Positions 1 to 35,020 of a stretch of 49,462 nucleotides of DNA are shown piece after piece. How positions within the stretch are numbered: position 1 is the first letter of the stretch; the number at the start of each line of letters is the position of its first letter. The stretch lies in IMG/VR virus record IMGVR_UViG_3300017762_002752, positions 1-49,462 of that record; one strand, given 5' to 3'. The position numbers were made by a program, and so were the translations under genes. The notes beneath the pieces were generated by a model. That model was not told where the DNA came from. It worked only from the letters and a program-made list of their open reading frames with translations, and ran no database searches. Source of the stretch: a virus.

Positions 1-822
1 AATTGTGGAAGTAATAATCAATACAATTATCGTGGAGTATATGATTGGGCAGAGTACCAAAAGCATTTTGTAGAATGGCAAAAGAAAGTACGCTTTACTG
101 AAATAAATGTTGTTGGTGGTGAGCCTTTTGTACACCCTGACTTGTTAACATGGGCTACAGAAATTAAGAAGTTATGGCCAGATGCATTGGTAAGTGTTGA
201 CACTAACGGAACATTACTTCATTTAGAAAAAAATATCCGTATTTCTAGAACCTTATTAGAAAACGATATTAAATTAATAGTGTTTTGGCATAGTGCTAAT
301 GATTTTGATAAAGGTAAAATATTTCTTAACAAAATTTTAGAACCTTATGAGATTAACATAATTGTTGATGATGGTGTTACTCGTTATTTTAAAGATGATA
401 AGTGCATTGCTGAAATTGAATTAATTGATGAATATTTCCCTTCAACCATAAAAGAAATTAAAAACGGAATAGTATATCTAGATGATACTGATGATATACA
501 AGGAAGTCATGATGTTTGTCATTATGCAGAAGACTGTACAGCAATACAATGCGGTCTTATGTATAAGTGCGCTCTACCAATGACATACGCAAATTCCAAA
601 GATCAATTTAACTATGAGGAAAGAGTTAGGCCCCTACTAGATCAATATAAAGCATGTTCACCGTTTTGGGAATATGATGAAATTAAAAAGTTTATTGAAA
701 ATTTAAATAACCCTATACCGCAATGTAGGTTTTGTGCTTTTGATAAACGAGCAGGATCAAAGGATTTTAGAATCCCTGTTACATTTGATAAAAGTTTGAA
801 AAAGTTTGCACATGAATACTGA
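1..822 (+). CDS. Radical SAM protein (5' end outside window)
   Basis: The open frame runs in from the window edge, so the start lies upstream. A TTG at 142 is not a credible start because the frame is coding before it. The fragment begins Asn-Cys-Gly, which could be the last cysteine of a CX3CX2C radical SAM motif. GGEP is at fragment residues 39-42 and TNG at about 68-70, both typical of radical SAM enzymes, which cleave S-adenosylmethionine with a [4Fe-4S] cluster. Seven cysteines between about 173 and 245, including a CxxC pair near 242-245, suggest a SPASM-like auxiliary cluster region. It is the first of nine radical SAM genes here and overlaps the next gene by 11 bases. The substrate is unknown. 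Confidence 0.85.
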   Translation, partial: NCGSNNQYNYRGVYDWAEYQKHFVEWQKKVRFTEINVVGGEPFVHPDLLTWATEIKKLWPDALVSVDTNGTLLHLEKNIRISRTLLENDIKLIVFWHSANDFDKGKIFLNKILEPYEINIIVDDGVTRYFKDDKCIAEIELIDEYFPSTIKEIKNGIVYLDDTDDIQGSHDVCHYAEDCTAIQCGLMYKCALPMTYANSKDQFNYEERVRPLLDQYKACSPFWEYDEIKKFIENLNNPIPQCRFCAFDKRAGSKDFRIPVTFDKSLKKFAHEY

Positions 823-1471
823 TTACCAAATTACAGATTGGCTACTTAATAAAAGTGATTTCGGTTGGCTTGAATTAGACATGGAGTTCGATTTAGACTC
901 ATGGAAGAAGGAAACTGCTGCTGCAAAATTTGTAGACCACAGGGGAGGAGAACATCCTGGTTGGAACAGTAGTTGCATACATGGCATTGATGTGGATAAA
1001 ACTGGTGCGTGGACAAACTACGGCTATGAAAGAGAAGAAGATGTTCCTTACAAATGGACTAGTATAAGTGAGCATACACCTAGCATCAAAGGCTTTTGGG
1101 AATTGTTTCCATATGAACGCTATAGAAGAATACGTTTTATGCAACTTGAACCTGGCGGCAAAATAAGTCCGCACAGCGATGCTCCTGGAAAGTTACCAGG
1201 TGAAGAAAATTTAGACATGCTCGAATTTGGAGTACCTATTAACGTAGCAATTATTCACCCAGACGACTGTCATATGACTCTTGAAGGACACGGTACTGTT
1301 CCTTTCAAAGAAGGAAAGGCTTTTATAATTAATATAAGAAACGTACATAGTTTTGTTAACAATTCTAACACACCTAGAATACACTTAATAGCACATGGTA
1401 TACCAGGTAAACGTAAAGATGAATTTGTGGAACTTATAGCAAGAAGTTATAGGAAACAGAATGAACGATAG
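812..1471 (+). CDS. Aspartyl/asparaginyl beta-hydroxylase-like 2OG-Fe(II) oxygenase
   Basis: A 219-residue protein with a double-stranded beta-helix pattern: His121-x-Asp123 (in PHSD), His179 (NVHSF) and Arg189. These would be the Fe(II) triad and the 2-oxoglutarate-binding Arg. The layout resembles the aspartyl/asparaginyl beta-hydroxylase branch. ATG 812 is preferred over an in-frame TTG at 806. The gene overlaps the upstream radical SAM gene by 11 bases and the downstream one by 11, indicating a translationally coupled operon. It is one of eight putative 2OG oxygenases in the island. Family assignment rests on the motifs. The hydroxylated target, whether protein, peptide or small molecule, cannot be read from sequence. 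Confidence 0.75.
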   Translation: MNTDYQITDWLLNKSDFGWLELDMEFDLDSWKKETAAAKFVDHRGGEHPGWNSSCIHGIDVDKTGAWTNYGYEREEDVPYKWTSISEHTPSIKGFWELFPYERYRRIRFMQLEPGGKISPHSDAPGKLPGEENLDMLEFGVPINVAIIHPDDCHMTLEGHGTVPFKEGKAFIINIRNVHSFVNNSNTPRIHLIAHGIPGKRKDEFVELIARSYRKQNER

Positions 1472-2465
1472 TATTAAAATATTAGATATATTCTACGGCA
1501 ACAAATGTCAACTTGCTTGTGATCACTGCGATACAAGGAGTGACTACATACGACACGGAGAATTTGATCCTACACTTGATAACATTTTAGAAAGTGTTAC
1601 ACTTGCTAGCCAACAGTTTAATGTAGAGTGTTGGAGTGTGTTAGGCGGAGAACCTTTCTTATACACAGATACAGTTATAGCAATTATTGAACATATTCGA
1701 AGTTTAGAAAAAGAAAAAGATAAAGTTATCTTCTTTCCTACTAATGGTATTGCATTAAACAAACCAAAGGTAATGGATCTTGCTGTAGAGTTAATTACAA
1801 AACATAATGTATGGATGCAAATTTGTAGTCATGTAGCAGCATGGGACGTTTTAGCAAAGCATAATCAAATGTTAGAAAATGTATACGATCTTGCAGCTCG
1901 AGTAGGATATGATAAAGTTGAACCTACAAGCAGTTGGTGGTCTTCTATAATGAACTTGGGAGGTGGCAATGCTGCTTGGCAAGAGTTTAATAGACGAAAA
2001 GGTATGGACTTAACCATGGAAGAGTCTCCTAACGAAGCAGCATGGATGAATGGGAAAAGTGGCATATATTATATGGAAGCTCATAGTTTTCAAAAAATAC
2101 ATAACAGAGATGACTTAGGAAAATTAAGGCCGTTTAATCAAGGAGATCCTGAATCATCATATTGGAATGGTTGTCCTAGTTGTTTTTGTGCAATGCTAAT
2201 TAACAAGAAAGTTTACAAATGCGGAGCATTAGGTACACTTAAAAATGTACTAACAAAAACAAAACAATTAGACGATGAAGATTGGCAGCCGTACTTAAAT
2301 TACAAACCGGTGGACTTAACACTTAACGATCAAGACGCTATAAACAATTTTTATAATACACACTACTCACATATAGATGCTTGTAATATGTGTCCTAAAA
2401 ATGTTAATCAAGTAAAACAAAATGAACAAAACGTACTACCCAAGTACGCAAAAAATAGATTATAA
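1461..2465 (+). CDS. Radical SAM protein with C-terminal cysteine region
   Basis: A 334-residue protein with a canonical CX3CX2C motif (Cys16, Cys20, Cys23) and GGEP at 62-65, so a [4Fe-4S]/SAM radical enzyme is expected. The C-terminal third has clustered cysteines (CPSCFC, KCG, CNMC), resembling a SPASM/twitch auxiliary-cluster domain as found in peptide-modifying maturases. ATG 1461 overlaps the preceding oxygenase, giving the order radical SAM, oxygenase, radical SAM. Its stop overlaps the 3' end of the convergent gene on the other strand by 6 bases. The substrate is unknown. Confidence 0.88.
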   Translation: MNDSIKILDIFYGNKCQLACDHCDTRSDYIRHGEFDPTLDNILESVTLASQQFNVECWSVLGGEPFLYTDTVIAIIEHIRSLEKEKDKVIFFPTNGIALNKPKVMDLAVELITKHNVWMQICSHVAAWDVLAKHNQMLENVYDLAARVGYDKVEPTSSWWSSIMNLGGGNAAWQEFNRRKGMDLTMEESPNEAAWMNGKSGIYYMEAHSFQKIHNRDDLGKLRPFNQGDPESSYWNGCPSCFCAMLINKKVYKCGALGTLKNVLTKTKQLDDEDWQPYLNYKPVDLTLNDQDAINNFYNTHYSHIDACNMCPKNVNQVKQNEQNVLPKYAKNRL

Positions 2466-3107
2466 ATCTATCTTATCACTAGGAATATAAACTACAGCAA
2501 ACACCCAAGGCTCGTCTGAGTTGTTCCACGCACCGTGTAGGTACTGTGAGTCAAACATAAACATTGGTGCTGCTTCTGGAGTAAACGCTTTATTGTCTAC
2601 ATGAACACCTATGGTGTCAGGTGGTAGTCCTTTAGGATATTGCAAACTAATAACCAAGTTTCTATTAGAAGACTCACCTACAGGAACTCCTGGCTTATCT
2701 ACATGATCCTCTATTCTTGCTCCACTTGCAAGGCTATGTAGTTCAACTTCATAATCAAAAGCCAAAGCGTCAATGTGCTTTTTAAAGTACTCCATTAAGA
2801 AGTCTGGAATATATTCTTCAGGTGAATAAAATTTTATGTATTTCCATGCACCTTTAAAGTCATCAGGATCATCGAGGTATTCTTCGTCCTCTTCTTGCAT
2901 TATCCAATTACTTGTATATGTTGTTCCTGTATCAGTACCGACAGCATTATGCCAATATTCGGCATCCATATCCTCTGTATCTTTGACATTTTTATCTTCC
3001 AAAAACTTTATCGCAGCATTAATATCAAAGTCTTTAAAACTATCAATAAAAGGCTGCAATTTAGGGAAGTCTTTATATGTGTTAAGATCTATCAGTTCGA
3101 TGTTCAT
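2460..3107 (-). CDS. 2OG-Fe(II) oxygenase-like protein
   Basis: A 215-residue protein from ATG 3107. The C-terminal half shows His135-x-Asp137 (DHVD), an Arg-rich strand near 149, and a distal His191 (YLHGAW), the expected iron-triad order of an aspartyl-hydroxylase-like double-stranded beta-helix. The frame stays open upstream to 3275, but ATG 3107 is chosen because a CATAAATA late promoter lies exactly 5 nt before it. Longer starts would run through the divergent gene. It is transcribed divergently from the gene at 3136 and converges on the radical SAM gene ending at 2465. The substrate is unknown. Confidence 0.7.
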   Translation of the reverse strand: MNIELIDLNTYKDFPKLQPFIDSFKDFDINAAIKFLEDKNVKDTEDMDAEYWHNAVGTDTGTTYTSNWIMQEEDEEYLDDPDDFKGAWKYIKFYSPEEYIPDFLMEYFKKHIDALAFDYEVELHSLASGARIEDHVDKPGVPVGESSNRNLVISLQYPKGLPPDTIGVHVDNKAFTPEAAPMFMFDSQYLHGAWNNSDEPWVFAVVYIPSDKIDL

Positions 3108-3112
3108 ACCAA

Positions 3113-3120
3113 TATTTATG
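3113..3120 (-). promoter_or_regulatory. Late promoter CATAAATA
   Basis: The minus strand reads CATAAATA, then 5 nt, then the ATG at 3107. It matches the T4-type late box. With T4 geometry, +1 would be the A of the start codon. It is back to back with the plus-strand late box at 3122-3129. Confidence 0.7.
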
Positions 3121-3121
3121 C

Positions 3122-3129
3122 TATAAATA
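3122..3129 (+). promoter_or_regulatory. Late promoter TATAAATA
   Basis: An exact T4 late consensus TATAAATA, followed by 6 nt and ATG 3136. Together with the box at 3113-3120 it forms a bidirectional late promoter with only 1 nt between boxes. Confidence 0.75.
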
Positions 3130-3135
3130 TTTGTC

Positions 3136-4230
3136 ATGGACTTAAATGACAAATTAGCATTCTGTATTGTAGATGATATAGATACATATAAAAACGATAG
3201 CATTAAACAAACTATTAGAAATATTGTTGACTTTACAATATCCAATCTGCGTACCAAAGGGTATACAGTAAACATAGGTAAAAACGAAGATCAACTATTA
3301 CAAAATCTAAAAGGTTATAAACATGCAGTAGTAATGAGTCCTGGCACAGAATTTATTAACGGCTTTGCGTTCTTTGAAGCACTAGATAAACTAGTAGAAC
3401 AAGACTTTTTTGTAGCAGGACATATATTAGATCGTACTATGCACAATGCTTATTATGAACTGCATCATCAATGTTATGTAATTAATATGGATGCCTACAA
3501 CGCATTTAAACGCCCTACAGTAGGCGCTTTAGAAAAAGACATAGTACATACCCAACTAGAACCTAAACGCAGCGTAGACAACATACACGACGACTATACG
3601 CCTATAACTGTAGCAAAAGGGTACAAGCAGGTTACGTATGCTAACAGATGTCATGGATGGAATCTATTAAAAGTAGCATTTGAATGGAACTTGCCTGTTA
3701 TTGTATTTGACGATAGTATTCGTAATAACAAATGCCATTACTATCCTGAAAGCACAGAGGACTTTTTAAAACAGAAAGAACATATTGATCACAAATTAAA
3801 ATACTGCGAGGAAGAATTCGTACATACTGACAACACAGAATGGACAACTGGCATTACAGAAAAGTATGAACAAGTTGTGCTACCTGCTAGTGGAACACTA
3901 TACTTAGACTTAATAGATAAAGGGCGTGTAGTGTTTTATGATTATAATAAAAAAGCACTAGACTACTGGAAAGAAACATGTCCACGTAAGGACGGCATAG
4001 ATTATTTGTTTGTGTATACTAATTTGCTTGAAGAACAGAACCTTATAAACTACTTAGATGTTAATCTAAAAACATTGGTTAACTTATCTAACGTATTCTG
4101 TTATGAAGGCACAGCAGCAAAGTACAGTTTAGAACAAAGGCTAACTGCACAAAACAAATTATTAAAGGTACTAGATACAGTATCTGATGTAAAGATTAAC
4201 TTTACTATGAAAGCTGATGCTGGGCATTAA
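3136..4230 (+). CDS. Unrecognised 364-residue protein
   Basis: I do not recognise a family with confidence. The sequence looks like a soluble alpha/beta protein: hydrophobic strands alternate with helices, no signal peptide or membrane segment is seen, and there is an acidic stretch around 150. Around residues 255-275 a strand followed by VVFYDYN resembles the binding region of Rossmann-fold methyltransferases or glycosyltransferases, but motifs are too weak to name it. ATG 3136 follows a perfect late box by 6 nt. The 3' end overlaps the convergent SGNH-type gene by 26 bases. Its place within the radical SAM/oxygenase island suggests a role in the same chemistry, which is inference only. Confidence 0.6.
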   Translation: MDLNDKLAFCIVDDIDTYKNDSIKQTIRNIVDFTISNLRTKGYTVNIGKNEDQLLQNLKGYKHAVVMSPGTEFINGFAFFEALDKLVEQDFFVAGHILDRTMHNAYYELHHQCYVINMDAYNAFKRPTVGALEKDIVHTQLEPKRSVDNIHDDYTPITVAKGYKQVTYANRCHGWNLLKVAFEWNLPVIVFDDSIRNNKCHYYPESTEDFLKQKEHIDHKLKYCEEEFVHTDNTEWTTGITEKYEQVVLPASGTLYLDLIDKGRVVFYDYNKKALDYWKETCPRKDGIDYLFVYTNLLEEQNLINYLDVNLKTLVNLSNVFCYEGTAAKYSLEQRLTAQNKLLKVLDTVSDVKINFTMKADAGH

Positions 4231-4837
4231 TTAACTCAAACACATCTTGATTATTTTTGTTACCACCTATATGGTTGGCTGCCCATGTGTCAAACCCTTT
4301 TATGTCTTGATCAACAAAATTATACAAAGGAGTTTCTATTTCAACTCCGTGTTTCCAATCATATGTTTTTTCAAAACTCCACATATGGATTATTTTACTT
4401 TTTACCTTGCTTAATACATTTAGGTCAAAGTATTGCAGTGCTGCTTTTTGCTCAACACTTGCTTTTTCGTAGTCGTGTAAATGTTTAAAATATTCTGCTG
4501 CTGCATTAATTTTTTTACGAAAGAATAAATCCTTGAAAGAATAATCCTTCCATTGTTTGTTTTCAATACTGCCTTTTGTAATGTTTCTAAGTTTAGCATC
4601 GTACAACCTGTTATAGTCTGTCCAGCAAAAGATAGAAATATCAGGTACATCACTTTCATTAAATTGTTTTAACATGACATCCCACACTGAGCTTCCGCCA
4701 TATCCTAAATTTGTAATTTTTGCATCGTGATGATTTCTTAGTTTTTCAATATAAGTATCGTAACCTTTTGCAATGCTATGTGGGTTAGATGTTTCGCAAC
4801 AGAAACTATCTCCGTAAAATCCTATTGTTAGTGGCAT
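4205..4837 (-). CDS. SGNH/GDSL-type hydrolase-like protein
   Basis: A 210-residue protein. The N-terminus has a strand then GDS (residues 9-11), the block I nucleophile motif of SGNH hydrolases. NLGYGGSS at 43-50 fits block II, and a C-terminal ANH near 187-189 could supply the catalytic His. Members of this family remove or transfer acyl groups on sugars, lipids or peptides. Block III is not clear, so activity is not assured. The ATG lies in the end of the upstream oxygenase gene (10-base overlap), and the order is oxygenase, oxygenase, SGNH. The target is unknown; a glycan acyl group is one possibility. Confidence 0.6.
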   Translation of the reverse strand: MPLTIGFYGDSFCCETSNPHSIAKGYDTYIEKLRNHHDAKITNLGYGGSSVWDVMLKQFNESDVPDISIFCWTDYNRLYDAKLRNITKGSIENKQWKDYSFKDLFFRKKINAAAEYFKHLHDYEKASVEQKAALQYFDLNVLSKVKSKIIHMWSFEKTYDWKHGVEIETPLYNFVDQDIKGFDTWAANHIGGNKNNQDVFELINAQHQLS

Positions 4838-5328
4838 GAGTATTCAGTCACCTGTAATACTATTCTTGGAACAAAAGAAAGATTAGCAGCACCGTGTTCG
4901 TCTTGTGAGTTTTCATATTGGAACACATCACCTCTCTTGTAATTTGCTACCATTGAGTTACCGTATATAAAAACATGTCCCGGAATAAAATCTTGTAAAG
5001 GAACCCAATAACGTTTACAGTTTTGATCATCATGAGTATGTGGATCTGTGTGCATAGGCATCATTTGCCCAGGTAGAAGTTTAGTAATCCACCAATGACA
5101 TTTACCGTCTGCCCAAGGAAATGTTAAATCTATCTGTAGGTCTTGTTGCTCGTATACATACCACATTGTCTTACTAAAATCTAGTGCGGATTTTCCTTTT
5201 TCCCAAAGTGCTTTTTCAACTTCGTTTACAGGTTTCCAATCTCCAGGACGGGCTTGTCCTTCTGTAATCATCACAAGGTCATTAAGGTCTCTGCTTAGAT
5301 CCTTACCGAAGTTACCTATCCACTCCAT
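4828..5328 (-). CDS. 2OG-Fe(II) oxygenase-like protein
   Basis: A 166-residue protein from ATG 5328. It shows His93-x-Asp95 (MHTD), distal His145 (DEHGAAN) and Arg155, the usual order of iron and 2OG ligands. The frame extends to a TTG at 5355 inside the upstream gene, but the ATG four bases after that gene's stop is preferred. This is the middle gene of a minus-strand operon starting at 6148. No clear Shine-Dalgarno sequence is visible. The substrate is unknown. Confidence 0.7.
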   Translation of the reverse strand: MEWIGNFGKDLSRDLNDLVMITEGQARPGDWKPVNEVEKALWEKGKSALDFSKTMWYVYEQQDLQIDLTFPWADGKCHWWITKLLPGQMMPMHTDPHTHDDQNCKRYWVPLQDFIPGHVFIYGNSMVANYKRGDVFQYENSQDEHGAANLSFVPRIVLQVTEYSCH

Positions 5329-5332
5329 GTTT

Positions 5333-6148
5333 CTAATATGTTTTGAGATGATCAATCCCTAGCCTCTTTCTAAAATCGTTTGTAAATTTACAGTCAATGC
5401 GTAAACCGTATTCAACTTCTACACTGTTTTCTCCGCCGTGCCAGTCTTGGTCATTCCAAAAAGCAGCGTTACAGTTTAAGTAATGTTTGTTCTCGCTCTC
5501 TGGATCCCAAATATAAAATCCTCTCTTTGTGCGATAGCGTATATGTATGAATTCATTATTGTGCGGACTATATTGTTTATCATCGTGTACTCCGTTGTCT
5601 GCATCTAGGTCTCTGTGTTCAAATGCTCTACCATTATGATCGCAGTGAAAGAAAATAACTCTACCAATGCGTTCAATGATATTATTTGCTTGTAAATCTT
5701 CTACCCATTTTACGACACCTGGAAAGTATTTGCTTTCTTCAGTCTTTTGTCTTTCAGCGTTACGTTCATTCCAGTCACCTTCATTCCAAAGGAAGTAGTA
5801 AATGTATGGATCATTAGCACCCATTGTTGCTTTTAAATAGCGTGTGAATATATTACGCTGTTTGTAATCGCCAAAGTCTGTAGGCAATATTTTGTTACCT
5901 TCGATTTTAATAGGATCGTTATCATCTAATGCTTGATACTCGTCCCATGCTTTGTAAATTGGTTTCCAATTAAGAATATAACTGCTATCCTTCCATTCAA
6001 AGCCAGGAGCCATCCAAGTACCTTCTTTTGCATAATCTCTTGCTAATGCAAACCCTCTAGCAATCTCAGGATGCAGATCTTTGAAAGACGAAATGTCTAG
6101 GTGTGAATCTAAGTTAATGTAAGGCTTTCCGCCAATTCCTCTAATCAT
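5333..6148 (-). CDS. 2OG-Fe(II) oxygenase-like protein
   Basis: A 271-residue protein with His178-x-Asp180 (EHRD), His237 (DWHGGEN) and Arg250, the putative iron triad and cosubstrate Arg. The first 150 residues are rich in Trp, Tyr and charged residues and match nothing I recognise, so they may form a substrate-specific region. It heads the three-gene minus operon 6148-4205. A late-like box (GGTAAGTA) ends 5 nt before the ATG, and the divergent gene at 6175 has its own box. The substrate is unknown. Confidence 0.7.
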   Translation of the reverse strand: MIRGIGGKPYINLDSHLDISSFKDLHPEIARGFALARDYAKEGTWMAPGFEWKDSSYILNWKPIYKAWDEYQALDDNDPIKIEGNKILPTDFGDYKQRNIFTRYLKATMGANDPYIYYFLWNEGDWNERNAERQKTEESKYFPGVVKWVEDLQANNIIERIGRVIFFHCDHNGRAFEHRDLDADNGVHDDKQYSPHNNEFIHIRYRTKRGFYIWDPESENKHYLNCNAAFWNDQDWHGGENSVEVEYGLRIDCKFTNDFRKRLGIDHLKTY

Positions 6149-6174: not shown

Positions 6175-6867
6175 ATGAGTAACAACTTTGAATATTATTA
6201 TAACACAGTTCCTGGTAAAGGTCAATGCCGAAATAATCTAATATACACCAGTTTGATTAGTAAGGATAAAAAGACATTTTGCCAATGGTACTACAATGAT
6301 GAACAATATCATGGCGGGCATAATCAAGTAGTGGATCCTAACCTAATGGAGGAAAAATGGTTACGTGAAATTAACTTTATACAGCAAATGGAAATGAAGT
6401 ACCCACAGCATGTGCCAGAAATACAAGATATTGACTTTATCAATAAAAAATTATACTTAAAAATTGATGGGCCTGACATGTGGGAACTAGCAGGCTGTGA
6501 AGGTAACGACTACAGTGTAGTTGATAATTGGGAAGAACAAATGCTTGAGATTATTCAAGCACACAAGGACTTGGGGTTGTACAAATACAGTATGCACCCT
6601 AGCAGTTATTTTGTAGTTGAGGGGAAACTAAAAAGTATTAATTACTTCTTTACATATAGTGATCAGGATCTTGGTATTAGTTTACGCAGTGTAATGAGTC
6701 ACATCAGTGAAGATAGACAAGCAGACTTATTTCCTAAAATGGAAGCTGCTGGAATCGACGTAAACAAAGATACTCCTCATTCACAAATACAGTTACTAGC
6801 ATTTGATAGTTTTAAAACAAACTTCCCTGATGAAGTTATGGAAAAGGCAAAAGCAATCTATGCATAA
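6175..6867 (+). CDS. Protein-kinase-fold-like protein (paralog of 11126-11809)
   Basis: A 230-residue protein. It has a Lys-Thr-Phe-Cys strand near 33-36, a Glu-containing helix, PEIQDIDF near 80-87, then KLYLKIDG, and a later HKDLG followed by a short strand and KSINYF. This order echoes small-molecule or lipopolysaccharide kinases (N-lobe strand, hinge, catalytic loop), but standard catalytic motifs are degenerate. The same block order occurs in the protein at 11126-11809, so the two are paralogs. It starts 5 nt after a late box and is coupled to the next gene (8-base overlap). Kinase activity is uncertain; it may be a pseudokinase-like or binding protein. Confidence 0.6.
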   Translation: MSNNFEYYYNTVPGKGQCRNNLIYTSLISKDKKTFCQWYYNDEQYHGGHNQVVDPNLMEEKWLREINFIQQMEMKYPQHVPEIQDIDFINKKLYLKIDGPDMWELAGCEGNDYSVVDNWEEQMLEIIQAHKDLGLYKYSMHPSSYFVVEGKLKSINYFFTYSDQDLGISLRSVMSHISEDRQADLFPKMEAAGIDVNKDTPHSQIQLLAFDSFKTNFPDEVMEKAKAIYA

Positions 6868-7420
6868 GATGGTACAGTGGCACAAAGACTTAGACTTGTC
6901 TGAGTTTTACAATGAAGCAGGTCGCCGCGGCTTTGTTAATAACGCAAGTCAAAAAGTAATGATCGACTGCTTTCACAATGAACGTGAATGGAATGCTTGG
7001 ATACTTTATAGTGATGACAAAGCAATAGGGAGTGTAGCAGCTCACTCCTTTGATGATGTTATGGGGCCTAACTCATATAGAATACTTACAAGAGTATGTA
7101 CGTTTGGAGAAGCAAGACCACACAACGGATTAGTAAAAGCAAATAGGCTTTGTGCTGAACATCAAAACTTGACAGATCAGTTTATGCTTCCTGCTTGTTT
7201 AGAATGGACAAAAGGTAAAGGTAGAGTGTATGCAACTTCAAACAAAAGTAAAGAAGGAAGTCAACGTTTAGTACATTCAATATACTTTCCTACACTTGCT
7301 AAGATAGGTGTTGTAAGCAAAGTCAAAGAAGTGCATTACAGGCATACTGACCAAACAGTTTGGGAAATACACCCCGATAAATTTTATGCTAATTTAGAAT
7401 TGTACCCTAGATGGGTCTAA
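6860..7420 (+). CDS. Unrecognised 186-residue protein, possibly GNAT-like
   Basis: Chosen start is ATG 6860, which overlaps the stop of the kinase-like gene by 8 bases; the frame itself is open earlier. The protein has a strand pattern ending near a DDKAIGSVAAHSF segment, followed by a GEARPHNG loop and a later SKEGSQRLVHS segment. This is loosely reminiscent of a GNAT acyltransferase, where a helix follows the cofactor-binding strand, but the usual acetyl-CoA loop is not evident. The 3' end overlaps the convergent SDR gene by 27 bases. Function is not assigned. Confidence 0.55.
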   Translation: MHKMVQWHKDLDLSEFYNEAGRRGFVNNASQKVMIDCFHNEREWNAWILYSDDKAIGSVAAHSFDDVMGPNSYRILTRVCTFGEARPHNGLVKANRLCAEHQNLTDQFMLPACLEWTKGKGRVYATSNKSKEGSQRLVHSIYFPTLAKIGVVSKVKEVHYRHTDQTVWEIHPDKFYANLELYPRWV

Positions 7421-12717: not shown

Positions 12718-12733
12718 TGCCAATACTCCATAT

Positions 12734-13733: not shown

Positions 13734-13738
13734 ATGCA

Positions 13739-27775: not shown

Positions 27776-28543
27776 ATGAGAATAATTGCAGGACCGTGTC
27801 AACACGAGACACTAACTGATAGTGCAATGATTGCAAAAGAATGTAAACGTGTTTGTGATAAACACGGTATTGACTATTACTTTAAAGCTAGTTTTGATAA
27901 AGCAAATAGATCTAGTATCAAAGGAATACGTGGTATCGGTATGGACGCAACACTTACCGACTTTGAAGCATTGAAAAATGAGTTTGGAGTAAACACAATC
28001 ACTGATGTACATACTGTAGAACAAATTCAATACATCACTGAAGCATACAACGATGTAGTTGATGCATTACAAATTCCTGCGTTTTTATGTAGACAAACAG
28101 ATCTAGTAAAGGCTGCTTGTGCTACAGACAAGATTGTTAATATTAAAAAAGGTCAGTTTCTTGCACCTTGGGACGTTGAAAGTATACTGTCAAAGACAAC
28201 AGGTGCTAAAGAAGTTTGGATAACTGAGAGAGGAACGAGTTTTGGATACAATACTCTTGTCGTTGATTTTACTGGCTTGGACTACATGCTTAGTAATTAT
28301 AATACCCCTATTGTTCTTGATGCAACCCACGCAGTACAGAAACCAGGCGGCAATGGAAGTAGTAGCGGCGGCAATCGCGATTACGTTCCTGGCTTATGTC
28401 GTGCAGGTAGTGCTTTGGGTATTAGAGACTTCTTTTTAGAAGTACATCAAGATCCAGACAATGCACCTAGTGACGGTCCTAACGCACTCCATTTACATGA
28501 CTTTGAAGCTGTTGTTGACAGTATAGTCCGTCATGCTGAGTAA
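27776..28543 (+). CDS. kdsA: 3-deoxy-8-phosphooctulonate synthase (KDO8P synthase)
   Basis: A 255-residue protein that matches KdsA along its length: AGPC at 5-8, KASFDKANRSS at 37-47, IPAFLCRQTDL, NIKKGQF, TERGTSFGYN and DATHAVQKPGG. KdsA condenses phosphoenolpyruvate with arabinose-5-phosphate, the first committed step to KDO of lipopolysaccharide. Cys8 in the AGPC motif is the residue that marks the metal-dependent class (Asn in the E. coli type). The gene is 6 bases after the QueD-family gene and just before a glycosyltransferase. A phage copy could alter host surface glycan or KDO supply (inference). Confidence 0.95.
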   Translation: MRIIAGPCQHETLTDSAMIAKECKRVCDKHGIDYYFKASFDKANRSSIKGIRGIGMDATLTDFEALKNEFGVNTITDVHTVEQIQYITEAYNDVVDALQIPAFLCRQTDLVKAACATDKIVNIKKGQFLAPWDVESILSKTTGAKEVWITERGTSFGYNTLVVDFTGLDYMLSNYNTPIVLDATHAVQKPGGNGSSSGGNRDYVPGLCRAGSALGIRDFFLEVHQDPDNAPSDGPNALHLHDFEAVVDSIVRHAE

Positions 28544-28549: not shown

Positions 28550-29365
28550 ATGGCATTAGAAAATCACAACTTCACAAAAGCAGAACGTAAAGCACAAAAG
28601 GCTGCCAGGCGGTTAGAAAAAGAACTGCGAAAGACAAATAACTTTCGAGACAAGAATGAGAACGGACCTGTTACACAAATCCTTTGTGTACGCTTTGGCA
28701 ACAAGTACGGAAACGAGTATGTTATAAAGTTACGTGACATGGTCGCAAGGCATATTACTGTACCATATCGTTTTAACTGTTTAACAGACGATCCTAAACC
28801 TCTTGAAGGTGTAAACAATATTGTTGTACCTAATAAAGGTTATGCAAGAGGTTGGTGGCATAAAGTTCACATGTTTGATCCTACTCTTCCTTTAGAAGGT
28901 AGAATATTATACATGGACCTAGATGTTGTTATCCATAAGAACATTGATAAACTATGTAATGTTTGGTTAGATGATTTTATGGGCATTAGAGACTTTAATA
29001 GAAAGTTTCATCCAAACTACAAATACCTAAATAGTTCTGTTATGGCATGGAATGCAAGAACACAATCTCACGTTTATAATAACTTTATGGCTAATCCGGC
29101 ACAGGCACAAAGACTGCATGGAGATCAAGATTGGATTTGGCAAAATTGTAGAGAAGTTCTTAAGTTTTGGCCTGAAGAATGGGTAATGAGTTATAAATGG
29201 GAAATACGAGATAAGACTGAACTTCATATGAAAGACGGACAAAGACAGTTTAAAACTATTAGAGATGATATAGTTGCTCCAAAAGACAATTCTATCATGG
29301 TATTTCATGGCGATCCAAATCCTGGACAAGTAAAAGACAAGTTAATTGTTGACAACTGGAAATAA
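28550..29365 (+). CDS. GT8-like glycosyltransferase
   Basis: A 271-residue protein. The first 40 residues are a basic helix. A Rossmann-like domain follows, with the nucleotide-sugar DxD motif YMDLDVV at 121-127, a GWWHKVHMF segment before it, NSSVMAWNA after it, and HGDQDW near 183-188. This order is typical of GT8-type enzymes that transfer sugars from UDP- or GDP-sugars. It lies directly behind kdsA, so both probably serve surface glycan or phage-protein glycosylation. The acceptor is unknown. Confidence 0.8.
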   Translation: MALENHNFTKAERKAQKAARRLEKELRKTNNFRDKNENGPVTQILCVRFGNKYGNEYVIKLRDMVARHITVPYRFNCLTDDPKPLEGVNNIVVPNKGYARGWWHKVHMFDPTLPLEGRILYMDLDVVIHKNIDKLCNVWLDDFMGIRDFNRKFHPNYKYLNSSVMAWNARTQSHVYNNFMANPAQAQRLHGDQDWIWQNCREVLKFWPEEWVMSYKWEIRDKTELHMKDGQRQFKTIRDDIVAPKDNSIMVFHGDPNPGQVKDKLIVDNWK

Positions 29366-30364: not shown

Positions 30365-31099
30365 ATGAAGTTTATATTTGATGTAGACGGTACATTGACG
30401 CCAAGTCGTCAGAAGATGGACGAAGAATTTTCAAAGTTCTTTTTTGACTTCTGCACAGAAAACAAAGTTTATCTCGTTACAGGTAGCGATAAAAAGAAAA
30501 CTGTGGAACAGGTAGGTAATGTTATCTACGGCTTGGCTAGACGTGCTTATAATTGTAGCGGTTCAGACGTATACAAGTCAAATGAAAACGTAAGACGAAG
30601 CGATTGGAAACTTCCACATAACGCTAAAACATTCCTATTAGACAAATTAGAGGAAAGTGAGTTTCCATTACGTACAGGACTACATATTGAAGAACGCCCA
30701 GGTATGATAAACTTTAGCGTTGTAGGTCGTAATGCTACAATAGGAGAACGTAAGTTGTATGCAAAGTATGATACTAAACATAAAGAAAGAAATCTTATTG
30801 CTGACTTGTTTAACAAAGAATTTCAGAACTTAAGAGCAACAGTGGGTGGAGAAACAGGGTTAGACATTGCACCTATAGGTTCAGATAAAAGTCAGATACT
30901 TGTAGACTTTGATAAAGACGATAGTATTTTGTTTTTTGGCGATCGTTGTGATCCCGCAGGTAATGATTTTCCTATTGCCGAAGCACTAAGACAAAACTTT
31001 AAACGTTCAAAAATTTATCATGTTAATGATTGGAAAGAAACATTTAGAATATTAAGCGATTCACGATTGACATCAACCTCACAAGATAGTATACTATAA
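30365..31099 (+). CDS. Eukaryotic-type phosphomannomutase-like HAD protein
   Basis: A 244-residue HAD-superfamily protein. DVDGTLT at 6-12 carries the nucleophile and acid Asp. ERPGMINFSVVGR near 110-122 matches the cap-domain substrate loop of PMM (a GMLNVSPIGR-like motif), and FFGDRCDPAGND near 196-207 matches the Mg-binding motif. These enzymes interconvert mannose-6-P and mannose-1-P for GDP-mannose. It lies in the group with kdsA, GT8-like and MptE-like genes, so a glycan precursor role fits. A sigma70 promoter for the next gene is embedded in its 3' end. Confidence 0.82.
   Translation: MKFIFDVDGTLTPSRQKMDEEFSKFFFDFCTENKVYLVTGSDKKKTVEQVGNVIYGLARRAYNCSGSDVYKSNENVRRSDWKLPHNAKTFLLDKLEESEFPLRTGLHIEERPGMINFSVVGRNATIGERKLYAKYDTKHKERNLIADLFNKEFQNLRATVGGETGLDIAPIGSDKSQILVDFDKDDSILFFGDRCDPAGNDFPIAEALRQNFKRSKIYHVNDWKETFRILSDSRLTSTSQDSIL
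31067..31095 (+). promoter_or_regulatory. Sigma70-type promoter predicted to give a leaderless mRNA
   Basis: TTGACA at 31067-31072, a 17-nt spacer, and TATACT at 31090-31095, then 6 nt to ATG 31102. The layout is identical to the promoter at 29349-29377. It lies within the end of the phosphomannomutase gene. Confidence 0.75.
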
Positions 31100-31101: not shown

Positions 31102-32151
31102 ATGAATAAGAGAATAGGCTTTGCCTGCAAATACATGTGGCACGATCAGACGCAGAAGAAGAAACTGCTAGAAGAGATCCAACGACCACTAAATACTCGC
31201 AGTACAACAGTACAATGGCTCAACAGGCAAACACGTGAAGATGCAGAACAACGCTTGTGGGATATCATGGTCCACAACATACAGAGCTATGCTAATTTGA
31301 TAGAGTACGTAGGGAGTTTGACAGATGAGTTGCGAATGGTACGACTGGGTAGCGATGTACTTCCTGTTTATACTGAGCCTACTTGGGGCTATTATTGGCG
31401 TAAGCCAGACGTCCGCGAATACTGTGAGAAACACTTTGCACCGATCGGCGAAAGGGCAAGAGCCCTCGATGTCCGACTATCGATGCACCCAGGCCAATTT
31501 ACTGTACTTGCGAGCGACAACCCCGAAATTGTAGAGAGGAGCATAGAAGAATTTGAATATCACACCGATGTCATACGCTGGATGGGATACGGCAAGACCT
31601 TCCAAGACTTCAAGTGCAATGTCCATATATCAGGTAGACAAGGTCCAGCCGGTATCATACACGCAGTTAACAAAAGACTTTCTCCAGAAGCGAGAAACTG
31701 CATCACAATCGAGAACGACGAAATGTCGTGGGGCATCGAAGCCTCCCTCGAACTTGTCGACACATGTGCATTGGTATTGGACATACACCATCACTGGGTC
31801 CGCACAGGCGAATATATACTGCCCACCGACGATAGATATCTACGCATGATAGATTCGTGGCGTGGTGTACGACCTGTGATACATTATTCATACAGTCGAG
31901 ACGAATGGTTACCGCAAGACTTTGCACACGACACAATGCCTAACATGGAACAGTTACTAGAGGCAGGCCACAAAAAGCAAAAACTTAGAGCCCATAGTGA
32001 TTACTATCCTAACAATACAGTTAATGACTGGGCTTTGTCCTTCCGTGACTCGGCAGATATTATGTGCGAAAGCAAGGCAAAAAATCTTGCTAGTAAGGCT
32101 TTGTTAGATTATGACCTAAGCCGCAAAACTCTCGCCACAGCCGCAGCTTGA
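31102..32151 (+). CDS. uvsE: UV damage endonuclease UvdE/UvsE
   Basis: A 349-residue TIM-barrel nuclease. The metal-site motifs are clear: RLSMHPGQF (His129), NVHISG (His175), TIENDE (about 202-207) and LDIHHHW (Asp227, His229-231). UVDE nicks 5' to UV photoproducts. Late strands and a Lys-rich segment near residues 292-300 complete the barrel. Base composition is odd: the 60 bases from 31441 contain 35 G/C, against 17 in the 60 bases from 30781 in the preceding gene, which suggests recent acquisition. The 3' end overlaps the convergent iscA by 36 bases and is AT-richer again. Confidence 0.93.
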   Translation: MNKRIGFACKYMWHDQTQKKKLLEEIQRPLNTRSTTVQWLNRQTREDAEQRLWDIMVHNIQSYANLIEYVGSLTDELRMVRLGSDVLPVYTEPTWGYYWRKPDVREYCEKHFAPIGERARALDVRLSMHPGQFTVLASDNPEIVERSIEEFEYHTDVIRWMGYGKTFQDFKCNVHISGRQGPAGIIHAVNKRLSPEARNCITIENDEMSWGIEASLELVDTCALVLDIHHHWVRTGEYILPTDDRYLRMIDSWRGVRPVIHYSYSRDEWLPQDFAHDTMPNMEQLLEAGHKKQKLRAHSDYYPNNTVNDWALSFRDSADIMCESKAKNLASKALLDYDLSRKTLATAAA

Positions 32152-32448
32152 CGTTGCATTAGGATTTCTAATTATAAGTTGGGATCCAAACACTTCTTTA
32201 ATAAAATCAACTTCAGTACCTGCAACATACATCACACTAAATTGATCAATAGCAAATTGACCGTTTGGTAAGTCAACTACTTCATCTTTTTCTTCTAAGG
32301 CTTCAGTCATGGACCATTCATACTGAAAACCGGCACACCCACCGCCCTTGACTTGAAGTCTGACGATGGGTTTACCTTGTTCGTCTATCAGCTTGGTCAT
32401 GTGATCGACCGCTGATTGAGTTAATTTAACTAGTCCTGTTTTTTCCAT
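32116..32448 (-). CDS. iscA: A-type Fe-S carrier protein (IscA/ErpA/SufA family)
   Basis: A 110-residue protein with the three family cysteines: Cys38 in GGGCAGFQY, and Cys102 and Cys104 in SSCGCGESF. This matches IscA spacing closely. It receives Fe-S clusters from the IscU scaffold and delivers them to target enzymes. ATG 32448 is preferred to an in-frame TTG at 32457; both lie within the upstream small gene. It is the third gene of the minus operon SOD, membrane protein, iscA and faces iscS-iscU from across a promoter region. It converges on uvdE with a 36-base overlap. Confidence 0.93.
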   Translation of the reverse strand: MEKTGLVKLTQSAVDHMTKLIDEQGKPIVRLQVKGGGCAGFQYEWSMTEALEEKDEVVDLPNGQFAIDQFSVMYVAGTEVDFIKEVFGSQLIIRNPNATSSCGCGESFAA

Positions 32449-32600
32449 AGTGTCCAAATACCATATCCGATTGCTGCATATGCTGCTAATTTCGCAAATG
32501 GTCCTGCGATTAGAACAACTACACCAACTCCAATAAGGACTGCACCGTCCCAGGATGTTCTTTCTTCTAGTCTATCTTTTACCCAATTAATAGGATTCAT
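32430..32600 (-). CDS. Small membrane protein
   Basis: A 56-residue protein. A charged N-terminus (NWVKDRLEERTSWDG) is followed by two hydrophobic stretches, at about 20-34 and 36-50, and a short basic tail. It is probably inserted in the inner membrane. ATG 32600 is chosen because AAGGAG precedes it closely. It lies between the superoxide dismutase and iscA genes and overlaps iscA by 19 bases. No family function is known to me. Confidence 0.65.
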   Translation of the reverse strand: MNPINWVKDRLEERTSWDGAVLIGVGVVVLIAGPFAKLAAYAAIGYGIWTLWKKQD

Positions 32601-32601: not shown

Positions 32602-33165
32602 TTATTCTCCTTGTATGCGGTCATTGATTACTGACCAATTTATAATCTTCCAAATATTAGCAAGGTACTTTGATTTATCTGCTTGATAATCTAGTGCCCA
32701 TGCATGTTCCCACCAGTCAACTAACAAAGCAATTTTCATTCCACGTTTATAACCGTGATTTTTAATTGTTTTGATTCGTCCTTTTGTATCTAAGTACAAC
32801 CAACCGGAACCTTGAATGCCCATAGCTACTTTTGAAAATTCTTCTTTGAAACTTTCAAAAGAACCAAAGTTGCTATCAATAAGTTCCTGCGATATGCCTG
32901 TAGGTTTATTACCTGCAGAAACAGGTTGTAACTGTGGGAAGAACAAATTATGTAATTTTGCACCGCCATAATTAAAATCATCATCGCCATCCTTATCATT
33001 GTATCTTTTAACATACGCTGATGCAAGTTTGCCGTAGTGATAATCAAGTGTGTCGCTGCTCATTACTTCAAGCTCATTCTTCTCATAGGGCAACTTTTCT
33101 TGCACTAGATTTTCACGAGCTGTATCTGCTTCAATGACTATTTTTCTGTATAACTTTATGGTCAT
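32602..33165 (-). CDS. Iron/manganese superoxide dismutase
   Basis: A 187-residue protein that aligns with SodB/SodA along its length. Metal ligands are His43 (YHYGK), His72 (KLHNLFF), Asp150 and His154 (VDWWEHAW), and the gateway Tyr51 is kept. The second-sphere His next to the YHYGK motif is Leu. The Gln that tunes Fe or Mn use is replaced by a Gly/His pair (Gly68 and His137), a pattern seen in some Fe SODs. Metal choice is therefore open. The N-terminal 25 residues are an extension. ATG 33165 follows a TATAAATA box by 4 nt. It likely protects Fe-S enzymes from superoxide. Confidence 0.92.
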   Translation of the reverse strand: MTIKLYRKIVIEADTARENLVQEKLPYEKNELEVMSSDTLDYHYGKLASAYVKRYNDKDGDDDFNYGGAKLHNLFFPQLQPVSAGNKPTGISQELIDSNFGSFESFKEEFSKVAMGIQGSGWLYLDTKGRIKTIKNHGYKRGMKIALLVDWWEHAWALDYQADKSKYLANIWKIINWSVINDRIQGE

Positions 33166-33169
33166 ACTG

Positions 33170-33177
33170 TATTTATA
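33170..33177 (-). promoter_or_regulatory. Late promoter TATAAATA
   Basis: The minus strand reads TATAAATA, 4 nt, then ATG 33165. It drives the SOD, membrane protein, iscA operon. Confidence 0.72.
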
Positions 33178-33235
33178 CACTTAGGCCCGGCATAAAAAAT
33201 AAAAACCAATCATTACATATAGTCTTTTTGTGTTG

Positions 33236-33302: not shown

Positions 33303-34574
33303 ATGGATCATAAGCAACACAGAGATGTCACAGCGACCATCGATACCCATGCAGAGTCATCGGGTAACAGAATCTATATGGATTATGCTTCTACAACTCC
33401 ATGTGATAAACGTGTAGTCGAAACCATGGTCAAGTACATGACTGATGAAGGTGAATTTGGTAATCCAGCAAGTAGAAGTCATAGTTTTGGATGGAAAGCA
33501 GACGATGCTGTTGATGAGGCTAGAAAAAATGTAGCTGAATTAATTGGTGCAGATCCTAAAGAAATAGTATTTACAAGTGGCGCTACCGAAGCAGATAATT
33601 TAGCAATTAAAGGTATTGCAGATTTTTATCAAAGCAAAGGCAAACACATTATAACAAGCAAGATAGAACATAAAGCAGTACTAGATCCATGTAGAGAATT
33701 AGAACGTGACGGATTTGAAGTTACATACTTAGACCCTAACGAAGATGGCATAGTTACAGCAGACATGGTTATAGACGCTGTTAGAGACGATACTATACTT
33801 GTTAGCATTATGTATATTAATAATGAAATGGGTACTGTCAATGACATAGAAGGCATTGGTAAGTATTGTTTTGAAAACAAAATAATGTTTCATGTTGATG
33901 CTGCACAGGCAACAGGAAAAATAGAGTTTAACTTACAAGAACTTCCTGTACATTTAATGAGTTTATCCGCACACAAAACATATGGTCCAAAAGGTATTGG
34001 TGCTCTGTATGTCAGAAAGAAACCAAGAGTAAGACTTAGAGCTCAAATACACGGTGGCGGACACGAAAGAGGTATGCGTTCAGGCACATTACCTACACAT
34101 CAAATAGTAGGTATGGGCGAAGCATTCAAGTACGCAAGACTTGAAATGGAAAAGAACAAACAGCATATTAAAATGCTACATGATAGACTGTTAAGCAAAC
34201 TTACTACTATTGAAGAATCATACATAAATGGTTCACTAGATCACAAAGTACCAAACATACTTAATATTAGTTTTAATTTTGTTGAAGGCGAGTCTTTGAT
34301 TATGGCATTAGAGAACGTTGCTGTAAGCAGTGGTAGTGCATGTACAAGTGCTAGTTTAGAGCCTAGTTATGTGCTTAGAGCTATAGGCAGAGACGACGAG
34401 TTAGCACACAGTAGCATTAGATTTAGTTTTGGCAGAACAACTACTGTAGAAGAAGTAGATAGTGTTGCAGAGACAATGCTTAATGTAATTGGCAAACTTA
34501 GAATACTATCTCCTCTGTGGGATATGTATTTGGACGGTGTTGACTTTAGTAAGGTTAAATGGAACGCTCACTAA
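33303..34574 (+). CDS. iscS: Cysteine desulfurase IscS
   Basis: A 423-residue PLP enzyme of full IscS length. The PLP Lys225 ([10 protein letters not shown]), His123 and the sulfur-carrying Cys347 in [10 protein letters not shown] are each exactly 19 residues later than in E. coli IscS. This means a 19-residue N-terminal extension and no internal gaps. The C-terminus ([12 protein letters not shown]...WNAH) matches the end that docks IscU. It removes sulfur from cysteine and passes it to IscU. It is followed by iscU 17 bases later and has both early and late promoters upstream. The full-length form suggests a functional enzyme. Confidence 0.96.
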
Positions 34575-34577
34575 CGA

Positions 34578-34585
34578 GGTAAATA
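34578..34585 (+). promoter_or_regulatory. Late promoter GGTAAATA before iscU
   Basis: GGTAAATA followed by 6 nt and ATG 34592, lying in the iscS-iscU gap. A GAGG stretch overlaps the start of the box, so iscU may also be translated from the iscS transcript. Confidence 0.5.
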
Positions 34586-34591
34586 ATTATT

Positions 34592-35020
34592 ATGGCATAC
34601 AGTAATAAAGTAGTAGACAGATTTAAAAATGTACTTCATGATCCTGAGGCAAATGGAGTTGGTAGGTTTGATCCTAAAGATCCAAACGTTGCTACTGGAA
34701 TGACTGGCGCACCTGCATGTGGTGATGTAATGAAGTTAGATCTAAAAATTAATCCTGACACCGATGTTATTGAAGATGTAAAATTCAAAACATATGGTTG
34801 TGGTAGTGCTATTGCAAGTTCGCACATGTTTGTCGAAATGCTAACAGGTATAACTACTGAACAAGCACAACAAATCAAAGACAAAGATATAGCAGATGCT
34901 TTAGAACTTCCTGCATTGAAACTACATTGTTCAATCCTAGCAGAAGAATCAATCAAAGAAGCAATAGAGAATTGGGATAATAAAAAATTAAAAAGAAAAC
35001 ACAATAACGGTCCAGAATAA
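34592..35020 (+). CDS. iscU: Fe-S cluster scaffold IscU
   Basis: A 142-residue scaffold protein with all cluster ligands: Cys43 and Asp45 in GAPACGDV, Cys70 in TYGCGSA, His112 and Cys113 in LHCSILAEE. It is IscU type rather than SufU. The chaperone-binding motif LPPVK of E. coli IscU is LPALK here, so recognition by host HscA could be altered. There is a short basic C-terminal tail (KKLKRKHNN). It lies 17 bases after iscS and its stop overlaps the next start. With IscS and the A-type carrier it gives a minimal Fe-S assembly set. Confidence 0.95.
   Translation: MAYSNKVVDRFKNVLHDPEANGVGRFDPKDPNVATGMTGAPACGDVMKLDLKINPDTDVIEDVKFKTYGCGSAIASSHMFVEMLTGITTEQAQQIKDKDIADALELPALKLHCSILAEESIKEAIENWDNKKLKRKHNNGPE

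Follow-up and report, generated by a model that had tools for sequence, protein, structure and literature searches.

A hypervariable island of radical SAM and 2-oxoglutarate oxygenase genes, exchanged gene by gene between jumbo phages, as a candidate surface-glycan tailoring locus

The virus record IMGVR_UViG_3300017762_002752 of IMG/VR (49,462 nucleotides, positions 1 to 49,462, hereafter the window) represents a 49-kb piece of a marine jumbo myovirus, with the PA5oct-like phages as its closest named kin, and its positions 1-23357 are occupied by a tightly packed block of about 30 genes, many of them for iron-using enzymes, namely radical S-adenosylmethionine (SAM) proteins (rSAM), 2-oxoglutarate (2OG) oxygenases and an alternative oxidase. 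Two further records, G001 (77 kb) and G047 (37 kb), represent the same virus at 99-100% protein identity, and in G001 the block continues for about 8 kb to the left of the window start; both parts together are treated here as one hypervariable tailoring island. A core of this island recurs in distant jumbo phages, single genes of it are swapped between phage lineages, and part of it has a counterpart in bacteria. The genes of the window part are listed below with their strand.

1..822, +: rSAM1, truncated at its 5' end by the edge of the window (PF04055 24.6 bits)
806..1471, +: 2OG_a, Asp/Asn beta-hydroxylase family (PF05118 E 1.2e-8; HxD..H..R in 5/5 orthologs)
1461..2465, +: rSAM2 (PF04055 39.1 bits)
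2460..3275, -: 2OG_b, Asp/Asn beta-hydroxylase family (PF05118 25.9 bits, cut-off 22.6)
3136..4230, +: putative GT-A glycosyltransferase with a methyltransferase-fold C-terminus, tentative (model pLDDT 74.6)
4205..4837, -: SGNH-hydrolase-like (GFYGDS motif by eye; no Pfam or PHROG match)
4828..5355, -: 2OG_c, motif only (HxD..H invariant in 10/10 rows of alignment A7)
5333..6148, -: 2OG_d, core, motif only (H178xD180, H237, R250)
6175..6867, +: kin1, protein-kinase-like fold, core (model and PDB fold matches, alignment A3)
6803..7420, +: acetyltransferase-like by eye (no Pfam match; orthologs 49-98%)
7394..7996, -: short-chain dehydrogenase/reductase (SDR)-like 1 (PF00106 E 0.005, below cut-off)
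7989..8438, -: SDR-like 2 (blastp 24.5-28.9% to SDR-like 1 and relatives; no Pfam match)
8435..9481, -: fusion of a cold-shock domain and a prolyl-4-hydroxylase-type 2OG oxygenase (PF13640 E 2e-11, PF00313 E 2e-8)
9466..10005, -: 2OG_e, motif only (HxD..H in 7/7, alignment A7)
9989..10564, -: di-iron oxidase of the alternative-oxidase family (PF01786 E 1.5e-67)
10561..11133, -: 2OG_f, motif only (HxD..H..R in 6/6)
11126..11824, -: kin2, relative of kin1, core (26% identity, alignment A3)
11806..12723, -: NAD-dependent sugar epimerase/dehydratase (PF01370 E 9e-39, PF16363 E 3e-41)
13077..13739, -: 2OG_g, beta-hydroxylase-like, core (7v4f E 1.8e-11)
13773..14525, +: QueC-like PP-loop ATPase, core (phrog_1550 E 3.7e-7; SGGxDS motif)
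14509..15777, +: rSAM3, N-terminal twitch, core (NF033640 E 2e-97, 326.7 bits)
15770..16579, +: GIY-YIG-like (MUG113), possible mobile nuclease (PF13455 E 5.6e-4, just below cut-off)
16567..17478, +: rSAM4, core (PF04055 54.1 bits)
17453..18457, -: rSAM5, core (PF04055 45.3 bits; allele closest to G078)
18454..19836, -: rSAM6, N-terminal twitch, core (NF033640 E 6e-118)
19836..20441, -: SAM methyltransferase (MT), core (PF13649 E 1.8e-4, below cut-off)
20469..21332, +: rSAM7 (PF04055 30.2 bits)
21313..22299, -: rSAM8, core (PF04055 48.6 bits)
22296..23357, -: rSAM9, core (PF04055 45.5 bits; allele closest to G078)

The nine radical SAM genes proposed in the first-pass annotation of the window are borne out by PF04055, which matches nine places, eight of them over the curated cut-off; the ninth, in rSAM1, stays below it at 24.6 bits, and this gene is full-length in G001 (L099:107-991), where 11 rSAM genes are found in total. 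The CX3CX2C signature is likewise retained in eight of the nine within the window and in the complete rSAM1 of G001, and it is present in all orthologs examined of the other eight (5/5, 8/8, 8/8, 6/6, 9/9, 5/5, 9/9 and 9/9). The GGEP motif is lacking in rSAM9 of the window. Two of the proteins, rSAM3 and rSAM6, belong to the N-terminal twitch subfamily NF033640 (326.7 and 394.3 bits, curated cut-off 170), the other seven lying below this cut-off or being unlisted, and among 80 rSAM6 loci both the CX3CX2C cluster motif and the twitch motif are kept in 80/80. Several of the window rSAMs carry extra C-terminal cysteines. Phages with 3-19 rSAM genes are common in this jumbo lineage, at least three being found in 22 of the 36 records of at least 50 kb; the highest counts among the records searched are those of G099 (256.6 kb, 19 rSAM genes) and G101 (275 kb, 18). 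No NCBIfam model assigns a reaction to the window rSAMs. Deazaguanine DNA modification, in which the QueC-like protein and a PTPS/QueD-like protein encoded from 27320 would be joined by one rSAM acting as QueE, agrees with the PHROG match of the former and the presence of the latter; no window rSAM, however, comes near the QueE equivalog cut-off of NCBIfam (best 36 bits vs 260.1), the PP-loop protein has no NCBIfam QueC match, and such a pathway would cover three of about 30 genes, making it highly improbable as an explanation of the island.

The HxD...H pattern on which eight oxygenase genes had been predicted is present in all eight, four being backed by profiles and four by the conserved motif only. 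Pfam cut-offs are passed by the genes at 806, 2460 and 8435, and 2OG_g, with PF05118 at only E 0.14, matches the solved beta-hydroxylase 7v4f (E 1.8e-11, profile A8); the assignment of 2OG_c, 2OG_d, 2OG_e and 2OG_f (4828, 5333, 9466 and 10561) comes from their invariant HxD...H, the listed residues of 2OG_d being invariant in 7/7. Comparison of the profiles of these motif-only genes with the Pfam-confirmed 2OG_a gave no match, as did hhalign of 2OG_g against 2OG_a; a PDB sequence search returned nothing at a meaningful E-value for the motif-only genes, a search of the phage collection gave no match for 2OG_d, and 2OG_b has no reciprocal ortholog in the eight records compared. The predicted alternative oxidase scores 227.9 bits against PF01786, over the cut-off, and contains ERMH and EEHH ligand motifs (ExxH). 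Its gene sits between two 2OG genes; the sister phages G048, G049 and G020 have no oxidase gene, and there the two 2OG genes adjoin each other. The cold-shock/prolyl-4-hydroxylase fusion varies between relatives, its ortholog having 204 aa in G049 as against 348 aa here with only 46% identity, and 348 aa with 79% identity in G078.

Two of the remaining island proteins are placed by structure. For kin1, the best model reaches a predicted local distance difference test score (pLDDT) of 83, the other four lying at 58-66, and 722 PDB matches are obtained at E<=0.001, the 50 listed being all protein kinases; because the usual aspartates are missing from its HPSSYF and INYF stretches, the modelled protein could be either a pseudokinase or a small-molecule kinase of divergent type. 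The protein at 3136 aligns in VIA-align with GT-A folds over approximately residues 1-220 (Z 8.5-10.1) and with methyltransferases over residues 214-364 (Z 8.7-9.0), a reading that is tentative because Foldseek returns nothing at E<=0.001. The SGNH-hydrolase-like gene (4205..4837) has no reciprocal ortholog in the eight records. A PHROG search gave no match for ten island proteins, and a PDB sequence search none for three island proteins of G001 nor for the 3136 and 5333 families.

The left part of the island in G001 comprises an rSAM gene, an aminotransferase-like gene (PF00155 E 2.5e-6), two genes of unknown function, a further rSAM gene, an amidinotransferase gene, a relative of 2OG_c and one more unknown, and ends at a tail-fibre gene with an Mtd_N domain, so that tail-fibre genes flank the island on both sides. 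G049 and G078 have most genes of this cassette in matching order, and there too it closes with a relative of this tail-fibre gene. The amidinotransferase, which lies outside the window, is closer to the inosamine-phosphate amidinotransferase 1bwd (E 1e-94) than to glycine amidinotransferase (2e-57) and belongs to the StrB1/AGAT family; Pfam ADI matches at only E 0.06, and its GHFD and HCATLDLR motifs presumably supply the catalytic Cys, His and Asp residues. A relative was found in 10 of 48 records searched, some only 27-32% identical. The adjacent tail-fibre genes and the extra C-terminal cysteines of several rSAMs would fit post-translational modification of the phage tail fibres, in the manner of peptide-tailoring rSAM/SPASM and prolyl/aspartyl hydroxylase systems, and the beta-hydroxylase and prolyl-4-hydroxylase families act on proteins in known cases. 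Against this, the only gaps within 1-23357 measure 26, 33 and 27 bp, leaving no intergenic room for a separate small precursor gene beside an rSAM, although a precursor might overlap another gene or lie to the left of the window, and an epimerase and an amidinotransferase would be unexpected in such a system. Tail-fibre modification is judged decidedly unlikely.

The coherence of the island is apparent from its recurrence. The core, consisting of 2OG_d, kin1, kin2, 2OG_e or 2OG_f, 2OG_g, the QueC-like protein, rSAM3, rSAM4, rSAM5, rSAM6, rSAM8, rSAM9 and MT, is found in the distant jumbo phages G057, G072, G073 and G078, MT alone not being found in G057. Within flanks of up to 3 kb around the 80 rSAM6 loci, an rSAM8 match is present in 76/80, these matches possibly taking in other rSAMs (median identity 66%), and an MT match in 76/80. 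Co-occurrence was further assessed in records collected by neutral markers, using the clamp loader gp44 and gp43 as seeds, which gave 23 and 21 records, respectively, of at least 50 kb (44 in all). Five shorter gp44 records, of 37-41 kb, were searched as well but do not enter the counts. Most records are fragments, and the p values from these counts are uncorrected for many tests or for kinship. An rSAM6-type protein (E<=1e-60) occurs in 17 of the 44, and 2OG_d in 12, 10 of these being strong matches; the two weak ones, in G099 and G053, are counted as absent in the strong count and as present in the alternative count. All ten records with strong 2OG_d contain rSAM6 as against 7/34 of the others (p 8e-6), or 11/12 against 6/32 when the weak matches are included, an association inflated by the adjacency of the two genes on fragments.

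The distribution of alleles does not follow that of the backbone. The close relatives, or sister phages, of the window virus are G048, G049, G020, G004 and G022, and the backbone proteins of the first four have a median identity of 93-97% to it. Membership of the backbone in the cyanophages or pelagimyophages is unsupported, because gp44 of G048 shares 55.6% identity with Pseudomonas PA5oct-like jumbo phages as against 37% with cyanophages, and the window protein at 24469 also finds its best match in PA5oct-like phages (32%). Backbone-type matches are made by 3/136 open reading frames in G072, 10/92 in G073, 1/72 in G078 and 36/121 in the first 100 kb of G057, and gp43 is 68.7% identical to the window clade in G073 and 78.9% in G057; the notion that G073 is a phage with an unrelated backbone was rejected on its gp43. 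Identities of the island proteins depart from the order of backbone relatedness of G057, G073, G078 and the sisters, rSAM6 being 57% identical in G057, 88% in G073, 94% in G078 and 76% in the window virus's own sisters, and for 8 of 23 island proteins G078 is a closer match than a sister phage. In the trees, grouping with the sisters is rejected for rSAM9 (approximately unbiased test, AU p 6.5e-40) and rSAM5 (AU p 6e-6) and retained for rSAM8 (100/99). Single island genes are therefore swapped between phage lineages. The identities had also marked rSAM6 as a candidate foreign allele, which was set aside when its tree did not reject the sister grouping (p 0.23). The GIY-YIG-like gene at 15770-16579 is 76% identical in G073 and was not found in the sisters; it could encode a mobile nuclease that drives the exchange.

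A counterpart of part of the core exists in bacteria. A genome scan seeded with rSAM6 gave 108 pattern matches that led to ten loci, and in four of these, from Bdellovibrionales, Bacteriovoracaceae and Halobacteriovoraceae metagenome-assembled genomes (MAGs), rSAM8, rSAM9 and rSAM6 form a contiguous run. The two Bdellovibrionales loci (L308 and L309) show the order rSAM8, rSAM9, rSAM6, MT; the order rSAM9, rSAM6, rSAM8 is seen in the Bacteriovoracaceae and Halobacteriovoraceae loci (L310 and L313, contigs of 103 and 328 kb), where an MT relative lies about 2-4 kb upstream of the run. Glycosyltransferase family 2 genes were found near the run in all three loci scanned (L309, L310 and L313; ten chosen proteins), L309 having in addition an acyltransferase-SGNH protein and an asparagine synthase and L313 a QueC-family protein. 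The run is missing in L311 and L312, on contigs shorter than 6 kb, and in L316, and L307 (3.5 kb, 75%) probably represents phage sequence placed in a MAG. Low-GC MAG contigs bear long arrays of rSAM genes, together with QueC-like genes, at L314 and L315, the latter being a Chloroflexi MAG contig of 161 kb (GC 0.27 in the part examined) with an amidinotransferase relative at 25%; both arrays may be phage DNA binned into MAGs.

Sugar-related genes accompany the island in the phage as well, an epimerase lying inside it and a glycosyltransferase and a KDO/DAHP synthase to its right, where the window continues with the following genes.

25792..26607, +: virion structural or tail-fibre-like protein (phrog_6002 E 3e-13, phrog_23059 E 2e-6)
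from 27320: PTPS/QueD-like protein (Pfam)
27776..28543, +: DAHP/KDO8P-synthase family enzyme (PF00793 E 4.8e-53)
28550..29365, +: glycosyltransferase (phrog_1962 E 3e-26)
30365..31099, +: phosphomannomutase, eukaryotic-type (PF03332 E 1e-25)
32116..32457, -: A-type Fe-S carrier (PF01521 E 4.7e-17; Cys 41, 105, 107)
32602..33180, -: Fe/Mn superoxide dismutase (PF02777 E 2.6e-24)
33303..34574, +: IscS cysteine desulfurase (E 3.3e-86; solved 3lvj E 1.6e-177; HKTYGPKG and SGSACTS intact)
34592..35020, +: IscU scaffold (PF01592 E 2e-38; aligned to solved 2l4x)
35567..42220, +: tail fibre, 2217 aa (phrog_9851 E 5.5e-42)
42220..44466, +: tail-spike-like protein (phrog_4636 E 4.4e-10)

Because of the coherence of the core, its exchange, the sugar-gene neighbours in phage and bacteria, the StrB1-like amidinotransferase and the flanking tail-fibre genes, the island is read here as a surface-glycan tailoring pathway, a proposal that we consider evenly balanced between right and wrong. 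The rSAMs, 2OG hydroxylases, kinase-fold proteins, PP-loop ligase, amidinotransferase, MT, epimerase and GT-A/methyltransferase protein would work on sugars one after another, taking away or moving hydrogens and hydroxyls and attaching amino, guanidino and methyl groups. Such a pathway would yield an unusual surface glycan, displayed either on the envelope of the infected host, where it might block rival phages, or on the virion fibres, and the swapping of alleles would alter its structure, as in O-antigen loci. In its fullest form, the proposal would hold that a lineage of marine jumbo phages carries, and reshuffles one gene at a time, a whole pathway of radical chemistry that gives a sugar coat tailored with guanidino and hydroxyl groups, a so far unnamed radical SAM glycan system common to them and to Bdellovibrio-like predatory bacteria, with the alleles setting the product and its recognition by rival phages or receptors; taken as a whole, this version appears unlikely.

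A number of points weigh against the glycan proposal. None of the island enzymes has an established substrate, Pfam gives no plain glycosyltransferase within the island, and the GT-A assignment of the protein at 3136 is weak. Of the NCBIfam models, only NF033640 passes its cut-off among the nine rSAMs, and this model specifies no reaction. For rSAM6, plain inheritance is not rejected by the tree; the bacterial loci come from MAGs and were found through an rSAM6 search, and six of the ten lack the three-gene run, three of them being contigs of less than 6 kb. The same kinds of genes would, moreover, suit the modification of structural proteins or a secondary metabolite. The latter would be a diffusible aminocyclitol or guanidino compound harming competitors or altering host physiology, for which the joint presence within the island of kinase-fold proteins, a StrB1-like amidinotransferase and a pyridoxal-phosphate aminotransferase-like protein speaks, a role of this kind having been proposed for a halogenase/carbamoyltransferase cluster of jumbo cyanophages (PMC7824862). 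Pfam recognised, however, no exporter or resistance gene among the island proteins scanned, and the three bacterial rSAM-run loci scanned have glycosyltransferases nearby, which leaves a diffusible product quite unlikely.

About 9 kb from the island, and outside it, lies the set of Fe-S assembly genes from which the first-pass annotation had inferred that the phage provides and safeguards Fe-S clusters for the radical SAM enzymes that it encodes, cassette and island forming one unit. The genes themselves are confirmed by profiles: iscS, iscU, an A-type carrier and a superoxide dismutase (SOD) gene lie 8.8-11.7 kb from the right end of the island. IscS and IscU have close counterparts among the solved cysteine desulfurase and IscU chains, respectively, and the catalytic residues of IscS, IscU and the carrier are intact, as the supply hypothesis would have it. 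The LPPVK motif of IscU, to which its chaperone binds, is absent, LPALK standing where the solved relative has LPPVK; because LPALK replaces the LPPIK found in 71/80 viral IscU proteins, chaperone recognition may be altered or lost in the window protein, judging from its sequence. A Pfam scan of 56 window proteins gave no match named HscA, HscB, ferredoxin or IscR, the genome being incomplete. A UvdE-family UV endonuclease gene (window 31102-32151) adjoins the cassette. Viral IscU is widespread, with at least 589 stretches in IMG/VR, and IscS stands beside it in 6/80 loci, or in 5 of the 54 with more than 2 kb upstream.

The proposed association of isc genes with rSAM genes was examined in the 44 neutral-marker records and did not reach significance: IscU (including a partial match in G108, counted as present) is found in 12/22 rSAM-rich and 6/22 rSAM-poor records (p 0.12), and the carrier in 17/22 and 11/22 (p 0.12). 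The gp44 sample alone gives 9/15 against 5/8 for IscU (p 1.0), records of at least 115 kb give 7/11 against 1/5 (p 0.28), and division by rSAM6 presence gives 10/17 against 8/27 (p 0.07). Post hoc, IscU is commoner with strong 2OG_d (8/10 against 10/34 without it, p 0.008; p 0.045 with the weak matches, p 0.038 without two sister records), which, along with its somewhat higher frequency in rSAM-rich records, lends the supply hypothesis some weight. Running counter to it are the 22 rSAM6-seeded records, possibly all fragments, with IscU in 0/22 and the carrier in 0/22; the IscU-seeded records, of which only 11/46 (the longer ones of 80) have any rSAM; and single phages, since G101 lacks IscU despite its 18 rSAM genes, G045 (132.6 kb), G052, G054, G066 and G070 have IscU without rSAM, and G005 (62.6 kb) has IscS-IscU and no rSAM. 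IscS is absent from the covered place in the island-bearing sisters G048, G020 and G022. That G099 holds 19 rSAM genes and neither IscU nor the carrier speaks against Fe-S genes being a requirement for rSAM sets. A loose link at the level of the lineage is possible, and dependence on the isc genes is not established. The supply hypothesis is also not new; it appeared in print in 2017 and covered phages of which one has 12 rSAM genes (PMC5332604). A single unit of cassette and island is rather unlikely; of the earlier suggestion that these genes form one modification system, the coherence is upheld by a core that co-occurs and is common to and exchanged between lineages, and the ISC link is not. 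The isc/SOD genes would instead be a separate, optional cassette that may raise cluster supply in general, and the supply model, which concerns this cassette, is compatible with the glycan reading of the island.

Partial likenesses to the island have been reported in several phages. The T4-like TARA_ERS488813_N000010, with 12 rSAM genes and an A-type carrier, for which viral assembly proteins were proposed to serve viral Fe-S proteins, resembles the window virus in combining many rSAM genes with an Fe-S assembly gene in one marine myovirus; compared by description, the available part of the paper reports no island, 2OG set, exchange or bacterial counterpart (PMC5332604). The Campylobacter phages CP220 and CPt10 were found in 2010 to carry an interchangeable module of 11-12 rSAM genes with a glycine-amidinotransferase-like gene, which is subject to whole-cluster replacement and has a tail-fibre gene about 10 kb away (PMC2853527, in the part available). 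The combination of multiple rSAMs with an amidinotransferase is shared, the amidinotransferases being homologous (23%, E 5e-20); unlike here, no 2OG gene is annotated in the 49 kb of CPt10 examined, and similarity between the rSAMs reaches only 22-45%, in most cases over part of the length. In the pelagimyophage host recognition cluster, described in 2020 and placed between VrlC and gp14, two related genomes differ by rSAM cassettes, and tail fibres and sugar genes likewise lie in a hypervariable island, according to the portion available (PMC7029224); this is, however, a different phage lineage, and its member HTVC008M has one PF04055 match and 13 annotated 2OG oxygenases. Polysaccharide or halogenated-metabolite clusters of jumbo cyanophages (2021), proposed to form a barrier to rival phages or a metabolite, similarly join sugar-modifying genes with several 2OG oxygenases; the gene set is otherwise different, and the word 'radical' is absent from the paper (PMC7824862). 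Eight non-orthologous 2OG genes were reported in 2022 in one group of pelagiphages, in a paper without the term 'radical SAM' (PMC9599517). In Tasman Sea viromes (2020), rSAM and glycosyltransferase genes are, similarly to the island, prominent among the main auxiliary metabolic genes, gene order not being given in the portion examined (PMC7150976). No description of this island was found in the full-text literature searched, which leaves preprints and most subscription papers outside, and relative to that literature, the conserved core, the gene-by-gene exchange and the bacterial counterpart are new. A swapped, conserved core with a bacterial counterpart near glycosyltransferases provides a first concrete lead to the product, and the question moves from iron supply to surface chemistry, namely whether these phages have a radical glycan pathway of their own that marks or shields the infected cell.

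Two observations concern the right-hand side of the region. A short protein at 48644-49117 of the window matches part only of the DNA polymerase III alpha NTPase domain (PF07733). In the sister phage G048, a gene of the tryptophan-halogenase family (L108:2308-3924; phrog_2928 E 6e-147) lies directly to the right of the region that matches the window.

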